Below, in pieces: positions 5,547 to 14,415 of a DNA stretch of 36,468 bases; the stretch's first letter is position 1; the number at the start of each line of letters is the position of its first letter. The stretch comes from a virus. The translations under genes and the position numbers were made by a program. The stretch is taken from the IMG/VR virus record IMGVR_UViG_3300035670_000695, positions 1 through 36,468 of that record; one strand, given 5' to 3'. The notes beneath the pieces are model-generated. The model was given only the letters and a program-made list of their open reading frames with translations. It did not search any database and had not been told where the DNA came from.

Positions 5547-5756
5547 ATGAAAAAGCTAAGTAAAGCGGACATACCGAAGGGCTATAAATACGCAGCGGTG
5601 AACCTTGACGGCAAGGCTTATGCCTACAAAACCAAACCAATATCGTGTTTTGGTTACTCTTGGCGACCGATCAATGATGATGAAGAGTTTAAGCGAATTA
5701 AGGGCAATTTTGATTGGGAAGACTGGCAAAATTCCCTTGTTAGTGTCGAAGATTAA
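5547..5756 (+). CDS. Single-copy IPxGYxYAAV...DWQNSL domain protein, 69 residues
   Basis: The whole protein is one copy of a domain present twice in the gene at 9936: IPKGYKYAAV, DGKAYAYKTKP, a Trp-rich centre and a DWQNSL end. The fold is probably a small beta-sheet unit with conserved Asp, Trp and Tyr. Similar short proteins occur in many phages next to nucleotide-metabolism genes, as I recall the family; no enzymatic role is known to me. It is the last gene before the promoter at 5737, whose -33 element lies inside this gene. Confidence 0.68.
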   Translation: MKKLSKADIPKGYKYAAVNLDGKAYAYKTKPISCFGYSWRPINDDEEFKRIKGNFDWEDWQNSLVSVED

Positions 5757-5767
5757 CCGTATTTTTG
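5737..5767 (+). promoter_or_regulatory. Promoter of the replication block, with overlapping operator-like site
   Basis: TTG (5737-5739), a 20-nt spacer and TATTTTTG (5760-5767) match the Bacteroidota pattern. The expected start is near 5773. The start is overlapped by TGTCgtagGACA (5771-5782), part of a 10-nt match to the perfect palindrome at 12739-12766, also placed behind a TATTTTTG promoter. Confidence 0.68.
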
Positions 5768-5772
5768 CAATG

Positions 5773-5907
5773 TCGTAGGACACAGCCGGCAAGCTGTTTA
5801 ATAGGTTTTTAAATATGCCTTCGGGCGCTGTGGAGTGGTTTACCTATACACTCTTTATTGTATGCCTTTGCCGGGGCCTGCAAGCAGCGACCGAAGGCAT
5901 TTTTTTT
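5773..5907 (+). ncRNA. Structured leader or small RNA ending in a strong terminator
   Basis: About 135 nt between a promoter and the winged-helix gene. Elements seen: a 5' hairpin ACAGC/GCTGT (5782-5797); a long closing stem ATGCCTTCGG (5815-5824) with CCGAAGGCAT (5891-5900), extended inside by CGCTG/CAGCG (5826-5830 with 5885-5889); an internal GAGTG/CACTC stem; and eight T (5900-5907). A second ATGCCTT at 5862-5868 can also pair with AAGGCAT (5894-5900), making two exclusive folds. This may be an independent small RNA or an attenuator for the replication operon. Structure is seen; regulation is inferred. Confidence 0.65.
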
Positions 5908-5917
5908 ATGTATTTTT

Positions 5918-6235
5918 ATGTTTTTTTTAGAACCAAGAACGCTCTATAAGTTAGACGCAAAAGAGTATTTTTTACTTTCGCACATTTTAATGCACTTCAA
6001 CGAAACAGGGTCTTGGCCTGATCCTGAAACTTGTGCTGACCACACAAACGCAACTCTTCCGATGATGTATAGAGTTAGAAAATCACTTTTAAATTCTGGT
6101 GTACTTGAACTTATATGGAGGATAAACGAAGAAGGATTACCGGTTAAAATATACCGCATAAAAAAAGAGTATGTAATTTTTATTGACATGCAGCAATTAT
6201 TAACCGAAAACGCAGAAAGCAATGAAACAGAGTAA
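5918..6235 (+). CDS. Winged-helix-like protein, 105 residues
   Basis: ATG 5918 is taken because the longer frame from 5858 would run through the terminator stem and T-run. The product has helix-turn-helix character (AKEYFLLSHILMHF, then NATLPMMYRVRKSLLNSGVLELIW) and a short strand pair (LPVKIYRIKKEYVIFID), the usual winged-helix arrangement. It overlaps the initiator gene by 14 nt and probably assists it or regulates the operon. No named family is recognised. Confidence 0.66.
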   Translation: MFFLEPRTLYKLDAKEYFLLSHILMHFNETGSWPDPETCADHTNATLPMMYRVRKSLLNSGVLELIWRINEEGLPVKIYRIKKEYVIFIDMQQLLTENAESNETE

Positions 6236-7178
6236 TCCAGGATTTTACGCCATTATTCCTTCTAAAGTAAGATATGACAATTCTCTTACTTATGGAGCGC
6301 GCATAATTTATGCCGAAATTTCGGCTTTATGCAGTGAGAAAGGTTATTGCTGGGCCAATAATCAATACTTTGCTGAAAGGTTTCAAAACAGCAAAGACAC
6401 AATTTCTCGCTGGGTTTCCGACCTTGAAAAAGCAGGATATATAAAGAGCGAAATAGATCAGCATAGTGGAAACAATAGAAGGATTTATCTAGTGAATGCA
6501 AAGCTAGATTACAAGGAGCTAGAAAACGACTATCGGCAAAAATACGGTGAGGTATCCGTAAAAATACCTAAAGGGTATCCGCAAGAATGCCAAGAGGGTA
6601 TAGGCAAAAATGCCGAACATAGTAATACAGTTAATAATACACTTAATAATACAGATAATAGTAATAGCGCTAACGCGCATTTTTTTTCTCTTCAAAATGA
6701 GGCTCAAGAAAATTTAACGACTCAAAAAGCTGAGCCAACTACTCCTAAAGGAAGAAAAAAGAACGAGGATGTACACCGAGCCGACGTATTACAAAAAAAC
6801 GTAATACAATTAAAGGAAGAGTTTATGGCCGAGCTTCAGCGCAAAGGCATAGCCCAGTACTACGAGCCTTTCAAGGAAGTTTGGCAGGAGTGGATACGCT
6901 ACAAAAAGGAAATACGCACCAGCTACAAGTCTGCACAAAGTGCCGCTACCGGTTTTAAAAGCTTACTAGAAAAAAGCAACTACAACGCAGAAAAAGCGCT
7001 GCGGTTAGTAGAGAACACAGTGGCAAATGGCTGGAAGGGCATACAGGATGAAAAAGGAAAGCCAACCTACTCCAGCAAACCCAAAGTGCACCAGCAACAC
7101 GATGAAACAATAGAGTATTTAAACGAATCACGTCAACGCTTAATTTCTCAATTTGGACTTACTAATGAATACAAATAA
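6222..7178 (+). CDS. Replication initiator / replisome organiser, 318 residues
   Basis: The N-terminus (residues 1-95) is a winged helix of the phage replication-protein type (PSKVRYDNSLTYGARIIYAE, NQYFAERFQNSKDTISRWVSDLEKAGYI). An Asn-rich linker (about 132-150) follows. The C-terminal part (about 205-280) has the FKEVWQEWIRYKKE ... NGWKGI pattern of DnaD-like or lambda-O-like C-terminal domains that bring in the host helicase. The linker DNA carries 12-nt iteron-like repeats, so the origin may lie inside the gene as in lambda O. No phage helicase or polymerase is present, so host replication machinery must be used. Confidence 0.75.
   Translation: MKQSNPGFYAIIPSKVRYDNSLTYGARIIYAEISALCSEKGYCWANNQYFAERFQNSKDTISRWVSDLEKAGYIKSEIDQHSGNNRRIYLVNAKLDYKELENDYRQKYGEVSVKIPKGYPQECQEGIGKNAEHSNTVNNTLNNTDNSNSANAHFFSLQNEAQENLTTQKAEPTTPKGRKKNEDVHRADVLQKNVIQLKEEFMAELQRKGIAQYYEPFKEVWQEWIRYKKEIRTSYKSAQSAATGFKSLLEKSNYNAEKALRLVENTVANGWKGIQDEKGKPTYSSKPKVHQQHDETIEYLNESRQRLISQFGLTNEYK
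6621..6667 (+). repeat. Iteron-like 12-nt direct repeats, candidate origin
   Basis: AGTAATACAG (6621), TTAATAATACAC (6631), TTAATAATACAG (6643) and ATAATAGTAATAG (6655) are spaced about 12 nt apart in a very A/T-rich stretch, followed by AGCGCTAACGCGC and an eight-T run. They encode the initiator's Asn-rich linker. Origin function is inferred from the lambda-O arrangement. Confidence 0.5.
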
Positions 7179-8623: not shown

Positions 8624-8656
8624 TTTGCAAATATGCAAGGCACTGCTTTATCTTTG
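8624..8656 (+). promoter_or_regulatory. Strong Bacteroidota-type promoter
   Basis: TTTG (8624-8627), a 21-nt spacer and TATCTTTG (8649-8656). This is the best consensus match in the window. The upstream block (TTAAAATTATTTTTAAAAA) and the bases around the -7 element (GGCA, then TATCTTTGCC) match the promoter at 26083 closely. Confidence 0.8.
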
Positions 8657-8685: not shown

Positions 8686-8988
8686 ATGAGTAAGAAAAAC
8701 GAGCTTTACCTGTACAAATTCATTTTTCAGTACGACGGCAAACAGGTAACAAACGCGCATATTATACGCGAAGAGCCGTACCATCCAGACGATCTTTTAA
8801 CAACAGACAGGGAGTTTTTGGTAGCTCATAGGGTAATTACTGAGCCTGGTGTTATAGATCTTTATTTTGACTTAATGGAAGATGCAAACCTGTATTTTGG
8901 TTTTGTTGCCTCTCCTAACTGGAGCCTTGCAAAAGAGTTTGTTAAAGATTGGCAGCTTGAGTGCAGCTACACACCACTATCGCTATGA
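8686..8988 (+). CDS. Hypothetical protein, 100 residues
   Basis: First gene after the strong promoter at 8624. It is acidic, with strands YLYKFIFQYDGKQVTNAHIIRE and a helix ending SLAKEFVKDWQLE. No known domain is recognised. It ends with an ATGA overlap with the next gene. An early host-modifying role is only a guess from position. Confidence 0.65.
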   Translation: MSKKNELYLYKFIFQYDGKQVTNAHIIREEPYHPDDLLTTDREFLVAHRVITEPGVIDLYFDLMEDANLYFGFVASPNWSLAKEFVKDWQLECSYTPLSL

Positions 8989-13174: not shown

Positions 13175-13801
13175 ATGCAACTGAAGCTAAACAAAATAAA
13201 ACCTAACCCGGCCAACCCGCGCATCATCAGGGATGAGCAATTCAAGAAACTAAAAGCTAGCCTTATCGAGTTTCCTCAAATGCTAGAAAAGCGCCCTATT
13301 GCAGTGACACGCGATGGCGATGGATACGTTGCTCTTGGTGGCAACCAGCGCCTCCGGGCCATGCTTGACATACAGTCGGAAATAGGTGATGCAGACTTTG
13401 AGAAGAGGCACAAAGTGCAGGCGGCTGAGATGGAAACATTGCTAGGCTACTTTGCAAAGGGTGTGCCTGTCGTAGACTGCACTGAGCTTACGCCGGCTCA
13501 GCAAAAGCGCTTTATTATAGCAGATAATATTCCTTTCGGAGAATGGGATTGGGAAGCGCTGGCAAACGAGTGGGATGTAGAGGAACTCCAGGACTGGGGG
13601 ATGGCTGTACCGAACTTGGCTTTTGACAACCAGGAGCCAAGTATGGAAGACTTGCTAGGTGAAGAAAAAAACAAACCAGCTTCTATTAAAATTACCTTTG
13701 AAAAGGTGGAAGATATAGAGCAGGCGCAAAAAGACATAGATGAGCTAATAAAAGAGAAGTATCCATCAGCGTACTACTCAGTAAGTACAGGAGAAATATG
13801 A
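13175..13801 (+). CDS. ParB-like nuclease-domain protein, 208 residues
   Basis: The N-terminal ParB/Srx fold is clear: LNKIKPNPANPRII (5-18), EQFKKLKASL (21-30), and the phosphate-binding GGNQRLRAM (55-63). It lacks a ParB centromere-binding HTH and ends in an acidic, helical domain (about 125-208). Stand-alone ParB-like proteins in phages often sit beside DNA-modifying enzymes. Here the Mom-like gene starts 4 nt before this stop, so the pair is translationally coupled. Likely roles are nicking, nucleotide hydrolysis or a helper of modification. Confidence 0.85.
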   Translation: MQLKLNKIKPNPANPRIIRDEQFKKLKASLIEFPQMLEKRPIAVTRDGDGYVALGGNQRLRAMLDIQSEIGDADFEKRHKVQAAEMETLLGYFAKGVPVVDCTELTPAQQKRFIIADNIPFGEWDWEALANEWDVEELQDWGMAVPNLAFDNQEPSMEDLLGEEKNKPASIKITFEKVEDIEQAQKDIDELIKEKYPSAYYSVSTGEI

Positions 13802-14415
13802 AATTAGAACTTGCATCAGCTAAGGCTGTAAGGTATGCCTGTTTGAATTTTCATTATGCAAAAGCAGTACCAACTGTTAGCCTTTCATTTAATGTCTTTA
13901 ACTCAAAGAATGAATGGTGTGGTGTAATATGCTATGGTAAAGGCGCTAATACCAATATATCAAAACCTTATGGTTTGATGCAAGGTGAAGTTATTGAGCT
14001 TTTGAGAATGGCATTAAATGGGAAACAGGAAAGCACAACAAAAGCAATGTCAATAAGTTTAAAACTTATAAAAAAATACGCACCTCTTGTGAAGCTGGTT
14101 GTTTCTTATGCTGACTATGAGCAGGGTCATATAGGTACAATTTATCAAGCTACCAACTGGTATTATACTGGATACAGTACTGGCACAGACGTAATAGTGA
14201 ATGGCAAAAGGCAGCATAAAAAAACAATAGCGTCTAAATTTAATACCAATTCTATAGAAAGTTTAAAAAGCAAAGGCTTAGATATAAAAACTCAAAAATC
14301 AAAACCTAAATGGAGGTATATATATCCAATAGACAAAAGAATGATAGAGATTTGCAAAAAGCTGCAAAAACCATACCCTAAAAAAGAAAATATAGCAGTA
14401 ACTTTGAATACTTAA
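13798..14415 (+). CDS. Mom-like DNA base-modification protein, 205 residues
   Basis: It resembles the phage Mu Mom family, which alters adenine in DNA to block restriction: NFHYAKAV (17-24), VICYGKGAN (43-51), EVIELLRMAL (64-73), SISLKLIKK (85-93), VVSYADYEQGHIG (101-113) and IYQATNWYYTG (115-125). These follow the Mom GNAT-type order of conserved blocks. The basic C-terminus (KPKWRYIYP) is also Mom-like. The stop lies 5 nt before a tRNA-like gene. The family match is by pattern; the actual modified base is unknown. Confidence 0.78.
   Translation: MKLELASAKAVRYACLNFHYAKAVPTVSLSFNVFNSKNEWCGVICYGKGANTNISKPYGLMQGEVIELLRMALNGKQESTTKAMSISLKLIKKYAPLVKLVVSYADYEQGHIGTIYQATNWYYTGYSTGTDVIVNGKRQHKKTIASKFNTNSIESLKSKGLDIKTQKSKPKWRYIYPIDKRMIEICKKLQKPYPKKENIAVTLNT

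Follow-up and report, generated by a model that had tools for sequence, protein, structure and literature searches.

What stands between the promoter and the replication genes of a phage, and does it govern how these genes are read? The question is raised by a virus record of 36,468 bases (IMG/VR IMGVR_UViG_3300035670_000695), analysed over its whole length and called the window here, in which a preliminary description had singled out a 135-nt stretch as a new switch-like structured RNA ahead of the replication genes. The promoter type, the best family matches and the gene content all point to the window being a phage of Bacteroidota. An upstream gene ends at 5756, just ahead of the element, and the replication module behind it opens with a small winged-helix gene, followed by rep and then by a DNA methyltransferase gene (Pfam, PHROGs). 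The replication initiator gene itself contains about 2.7 copies of a 23-nt unit, GGTATCCGCAAAAATACCAAAAG, which resembles the iterons of replication origins (Table 1); a 12-nt repeat comes after them at 6623-6660. Elsewhere in the window, positions 13798-14415 encode a Mom-like DNA modification protein (PHROG 1384, E = 1.2e-46), which a ParB-like gene adjoins.

Promoter and fold of the RNA

The promoter, the 5' hairpin, the T8 run and the start codon of the winged-helix gene just after that run, all of which had been claimed before, are indeed found in the window as listed in Table 1. The promoter follows the consensus of Bacteroidota, which has TAnnTTTG at -7 and TTTG at -33 (PMC7366714), and a sigma-70 scan found nothing at the site of the element, as expected for a promoter of another type. 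Since three TTG-N20-TAnnTTTG sites occur in the window against 1.0 expected, the pattern alone is weak evidence; what makes the call convincing is that the copies L155 and L160 of the RNA (described below), with flanks otherwise unrelated, keep the identical element at the identical spacing ahead of it. In fact, all complete copies carry a promoter of this type. Judging from the distance to the promoter, transcription would start near 5772, and the conserved lead of the transcript may possibly form a 3-bp GUC/GAC hairpin.

Table 1. Features of the element and of the replication module behind it, in positions of the window
Feature	Position	Strand	Evidence
Promoter of the Bacteroidota sigma type: TTG (5737-5739), N20, TATTTTTG (5760-5767)	5737..5767	+	exact match to TTG-N20-TAnnTTTG
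Presumed transcript 5' end, GUCGUAGGAC	5772..5781	+	kept as GUCKUAGGAC in 6/6 distinct homologues
5' hairpin P1, ACAGC - CGGCAA - GCUGU	5782..5797	+	double-sided change in 3/5 pairs; 100% of cells paired
Loop L1, 5' strand of KL1 (kissing loop)	5787..5792	+	partner 5868-5873 (P4 loop); 6/6 complementary in 6 distinct homologues
5' strand of PK2 in the linker, AUAGGU	5801..5806	+	partner ACCUAU 5842-5847 (P3 loop); double-sided change in 6/6 pairs
Terminal stem P2, 5' arm, AUGCCUUCGGGCGCUG	5815..5830	+	pairs with 5885-5900; 15/15 base pairs invariant
Inner hairpin P3	5832..5854	+	100% of cells paired; one double-sided and two one-sided changes
Inner hairpin P4, 10 bp with 6-nt loop UUGCCG (5868-5873)	5858..5883	+	double-sided change in 6/10 pairs; 96.7% of cells paired
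Terminal stem P2, 3' arm, CAGCGACCGAAGGCAU	5885..5900	+	invariant except A or G at the single mismatch
T8 run, predicted tail of an intrinsic terminator	5900..5907	+	every homologue has U4 or more behind the stem
U-rich spacer, end of P2 to start codon	5901..5917	+	17 nt; 14/17 bases T
First replication-module gene, for a small DnaD_N-like winged-helix protein	5918..6235	+	Pfam DnaD_N, E = 4.1e-6
Replication initiation protein (Rep), HTH_36	6222..7178	+	Pfam and PHROGs
Iteron-like 23-nt repeats inside rep, candidate origin	6551-6611		about 2.7 copies of the unit

The 135-nt sequence folds with a minimum free energy of -49.5 kcal/mol (z = -3.4), and one of 200 shuffles was equally stable. The long compound stem proposed before stands as P2, which has 10 + 5 bp around one mismatch; the single internal hairpin that had been placed in it does not, as the stem encloses two hairpins, P3 and P4. 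This layout is common to the copies, namely the lead GUCKUAGGAC, P1 with a 6-nt loop, a linker, P2, P3, P4 and the U-run, and P4 has 10 bp and a 6-nt loop in every homologue. By sequence, all homologues bear the form of an intrinsic terminator, in which the GC-rich 15-bp stem leads directly into U4-U8. Moreover the 5' arm of P2 by itself can fold into a GCC-UUCG-GGC tetraloop hairpin of -3.6 kcal/mol.

Homologues and covarying tertiary pairings

Beyond the window, six more complete copies and one cut copy of the element were found in IMG/VR phage records. The portal protein led to relatives, among them the record G005, which starts exactly inside the element with AGCAGCGACCGAAGGCATTTTTT, followed by a start codon; this sequence and a two-arm pattern, used as queries, then led to L026, L155, L159, L160, L170 and L173. 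There are thus seven complete copies including the window, six of them distinct in sequence (the RNA of L026 is identical to that of the window), together with the cut copy in G005. The contig of the latter begins (L139, position 1) within the 3' arm of P2, possibly because the hairpin or shared sequence broke the assembly there. A covariance model scores all copies at 124-154 bits, a figure that is not independent because the model was built from the same copies. Among the six records holding copies, some of which are fragments, only G008 (with L026) has a terminase like that of the window, and the element therefore occurs in phages with different packaging genes.

Two tertiary helices, KL1 and PK2, had been overlooked before. 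For KL1, the loop pairs across the copies read CGGCAA/UUGCCG, GUGCAA/UUGCAC and CGGGAA/UUCCCG, perfectly complementary in each, and three of the six pairs covary; for PK2, in which all six covary and which is likewise fully complementary in each copy, the strands read AUAGGU/ACCUAU, ACAGAU/AUCUGU, ACGAGA/UCUCGU, CAUAGU/GCUAUG and CAUACU/GGUAUG, of which the last two each contain one G-U pair. When the loops were shuffled sequence by sequence, the chance level was 0.5-4% per helix per sequence. Pairing is complete between each loop and its own partner and, barring wobble near-misses, poorer when the partner is taken from another lineage. The check for covariation in related phages, which the preliminary description had proposed, gave a double-sided change in 19 of the 48 pairs over the whole element, counts that come from four or five lineages and are not independent events. 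In the alignment, which was cut by hand into structural elements around these helices and so favours structure, KL1 and PK2 included, 99.3% of the cells are paired against 40-45% in slid controls, and none of 500 shuffles reached any of the five observed measures. Taken together, the homologues and the covariation strongly support a new conserved structured RNA ahead of the replication genes, as had been suggested.

As P2 never varies, it has no covariation support of its own. Something else must account for its constancy, for instance a partner that binds it or a double role, of which the UUCG hairpin is one visible instance. An invariant stem of this kind suggests a partner that is common to the hosts.

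The searches outside these records covered hosts, viruses and known RNA families. The exact two-arm core pattern was scanned in one genome each from 84,980 bacterial and archaeal species and gave 52 matches, none of them convincing, the best reaching 18.2 bits (E 0.13) with the model; L208, a pattern match in a host genome, was rejected on inspection. A model search of 395 genomes of one phylum, with eight candidates scored per genome and without a positive control, was empty. With the host-genome matches so weak or empty, the element seems to be phage-borne as far as the scanned genome sets tell. The winged-helix protein as query found no homologues in viral contigs or phages; Rep as query found distant phages only, whose upstream regions, checked by eye, are without the element (L002 is negative with the model too). 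The pattern of the 5' hairpin alone gave more than 100 matches, mostly by chance, with only L026 recognised among them, and the pattern TTTGCAANGTCNTAGGAC gave no further homologue, including none in the 395 genomes. The viral scan with the protein neighbouring L155 and L160 brought nothing new, and blastn against plasmids and phages brought no usable match. The Rfam search that had also been proposed (Rfam 15) returned no family at the gathering score, and a relaxed threshold for the window, L170 and L160 likewise gave nothing significant. In fact the best sub-threshold matches, the Bacteroid-trp leader RF01692 and JA04 RF02732, resemble the element in having a stem with a U-run or A-run composition, but they reach 25 and 23.4 bits where the gathering scores are 49 and 81, and Bacteroid-trp lies on the wrong strand. 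Nor was a description of the element found in the part of the literature that was covered. We rate the RNA as a new family that belongs to no named one, and which would resemble leader attenuators in its action if the reading favoured below is right.

Downstream genes and the question of a switch

The next plausible start codon follows the end of the stem after 17, 17, 16, 16, 16, 14, 15 and 14 nt, that is, within 14-17 nt at all eight loci; an earlier ATG in the window and L026 opens just 13 and 8 codons, respectively. The spacer is conserved in its U-richness and not otherwise, and the T content of the window spacer is the highest among the 40 window genes compared. As to the genes behind it, those of the window and L026 match DnaD_N or HTH_36 above the cut-off, while L170, L173, L160 and L139 (G005) show weak winged-helix or replication matches; the gene of L159 has no Pfam match, though L159 and L173 have a homologous gene in common. 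In L155 the frame after the RNA (from 1666) is open for 37 codons only, against 96 in the related L160, and the gene looks interrupted. A comparison of the window (from 5918) with L026 (from 3316) is especially clear: the terminases are 97% identical and the RNAs identical, but the genes right after the RNA are unrelated, so that the homology ends at the start codon in a sharp module boundary. The downstream proteins differ between phages, though they are usually small and of a winged-helix replication type; the RNA thus remains in place while the gene next to it is swapped.

The invariant AUG with which P2 begins opens a stop-free frame through the RNA in all seven complete copies (5815-5948 in the window), which ends near the next start codon or fuses with the gene. 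A coding function or a leader peptide was nevertheless rejected, because nine of the ten codons that differ between the window and L170 are changed non-synonymously, the homologues between them use all three frames for the 3' arm, the openness is near chance and the peptide is not conserved.

The switch itself had been proposed on the ground that AAGGCAT (5894-5900) may pair with either of two ATGCCTT copies (5815-5821 and 5862-5868) to give exclusive folds, with conservation of these arms named as a check. All three motifs are present in the window. However, the second ATGCCTT is not kept in the homologues: it is missing from L170, L173, L155 and L160, and the site of 5862-5868 reads ATCCTTT or unrelated letters, so that this switch was rejected. 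The full-length fold contains the complete terminator stem in every homologue. Stepwise folds of growing transcripts, in a calculation that ignores pseudoknots and kinetics, passed through various transient pairings but revealed no conserved antiterminator common to all homologues and only the weak UUCG hairpin in some steps; the stem could thus be a constitutive terminator.

Proposed regulatory role and rival explanations

The explanation we favour, though we give it no better than an even chance, is that the RNA makes up the entire 5' leader of the replication operon, phage-borne and acting in cis as a transcription attenuator. In the fold that sequence and comparison show, the 5' domain bridges both arms of a three-way junction, the P1 loop to the P4 loop by KL1 and the linker to the P3 loop by PK2, and the junction is closed by the invariant 15-bp stem, followed by the U-run. 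Transcripts begun at the promoter near 5772 would mostly stop at about 5907, and read-through would yield the mRNA for the winged-helix protein and Rep and would also pass the candidate origin inside rep, a possible parallel to lambda. The bridged fold would fix both arms in position and assist the zipping of the terminal stem, with off as the default state; candidates for relief are a factor or ligand at the junction or the invariant stem, a modification of RNA polymerase, or a translating ribosome. This reading is drawn from the covarying pairs, the promoter and 5' end conserved along with the RNA, the start codon at 14-17 nt, the winged-helix type of the genes, and the U-run with a full stem. 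The element probably decides, if we go by these features, how much of the replication genes gets read. A wider proposal is more tentative, and we would sooner expect it to need revision than to hold in full: a new class of phage RNA, in which the 5' domain uses a kissing loop and a pseudoknot to staple both arms of a three-way junction, the closing stem is the terminator, and the tertiary fold would directly set the expression of the replication module and the transcription through the origin, the cassette being exchanged between phages together with its promoter.

Against the attenuator count the missing antiterminator fold common to all homologues, the L159 gene without a Pfam match, the 37 codons of L155, the limitation to four or five lineages, and the fact that its own promoter and strong predicted terminator also fit a stand-alone small RNA, which would have a host or phage target in trans and owe its location to modular exchange. 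Such a small RNA, the other option in the preliminary description and the main rival, is unlikely in our judgement, yet to be taken seriously: P2 is invariant in all 15 pairs as though it were read by a trans partner, and the RNA persists through exchanges of the genes that follow it; on the other hand, a near-fixed distance to the start codon at eight of eight loci is unexpected for an independent RNA gene, and the scan of the window found no candidate TTG-N20-TAnnTTTG site between the RNA and the gene. The near-constant distance and the unusually U-rich spacer would also suit a structured 5' UTR for translation control, with the spacer as a ribosome landing site exposed or blocked by the fold and the U-run not mainly a terminator, and the U-run is in fact interrupted in some homologues (L155 UUUUAUUUUG, L160 UUUUUAUUUUG). 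We consider this improbable, though still a real rival, as a 15-bp GC-rich stem running directly into U4-U8 is a textbook intrinsic terminator and the spacer is not conserved beyond its U-richness.

Two further explanations appear to us very improbable. One is that the RNA acts on RNA polymerase as a put-like cis antiterminator, or on its own copies through a loop-loop dimer that senses transcript number. It sits at the start of an early operon leading to replication genes, just like the phage RNA elements HK022 put and the lambda nutR/tR1 region, and its complementary 6-nt loops co-vary and could pair between molecules also; but the HK022 put RNA suppresses downstream termination and is not described as ending in a terminator of its own (PMC9378689), whereas the element ends in its own predicted one, and KL1 and PK2 are near each other and can readily form within a single molecule. 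The other, to which we give equally little credit, is that the element has no function as RNA, being either a common terminator for the upstream operon or a site at the DNA level (origin, recombination). The upstream gene ends just before the element, and the stop of window/L026 homology at the start codon resembles a module boundary, though a plain terminator leaves unexplained the promoter inside the unit, the 5' hairpin outside the stem and the two covarying tertiary helices.

If the attenuator reading holds, the element would be like known attenuators and riboswitches with an intrinsic terminator in having a structured 5' leader, its own promoter, and a stem with U-run just before the first gene; unlike them, it is without leader-peptide logic or a common antiterminator fold, and its terminator stem is the closing stem of the folded domain. 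The purine riboswitch is a three-way junction closed by one stem, in which two arms are held together via their loops. The element is likewise a three-way junction closed by one stem, but here a separate 5' domain (hairpin loop and linker) joins the arms, which do not hold each other, and the element has no Rfam match. With the kissing-loop control RNAs of plasmids, such as ColE1 RNA I/II and CopA/CopT, it has in common fast-changing complementary loops on conserved stems beside replication functions; its two loops are however on the same strand of one RNA, and an antisense gene is neither needed nor seen. The regulation of Bacteroidota phages is little known. The element offers a defined and testable control point for phage replication; compact and uncatalogued, it recurs behind the promoter and ahead of the replication genes in phages that differ in their other modules. 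It would also suit structural work, as a small natural RNA that has a three-way junction and two loop-loop contacts around it.

The promoter type may also occur at other places. Two more intergenic promoter-like sites of the Bacteroidota type are located at 8625 and 26084 of the window (TTG, 20-21 nt, TATCTTTG), before the genes at 8686 and 26164. In a large phage with a record of 327,676 bases, a tRNA operon shares the promoter and lead of the RNA, TATGTTTGCAAAGTCTTAGGAC, at its start but not the rest of it (L242 6781-6798 and L244 11394-11411).
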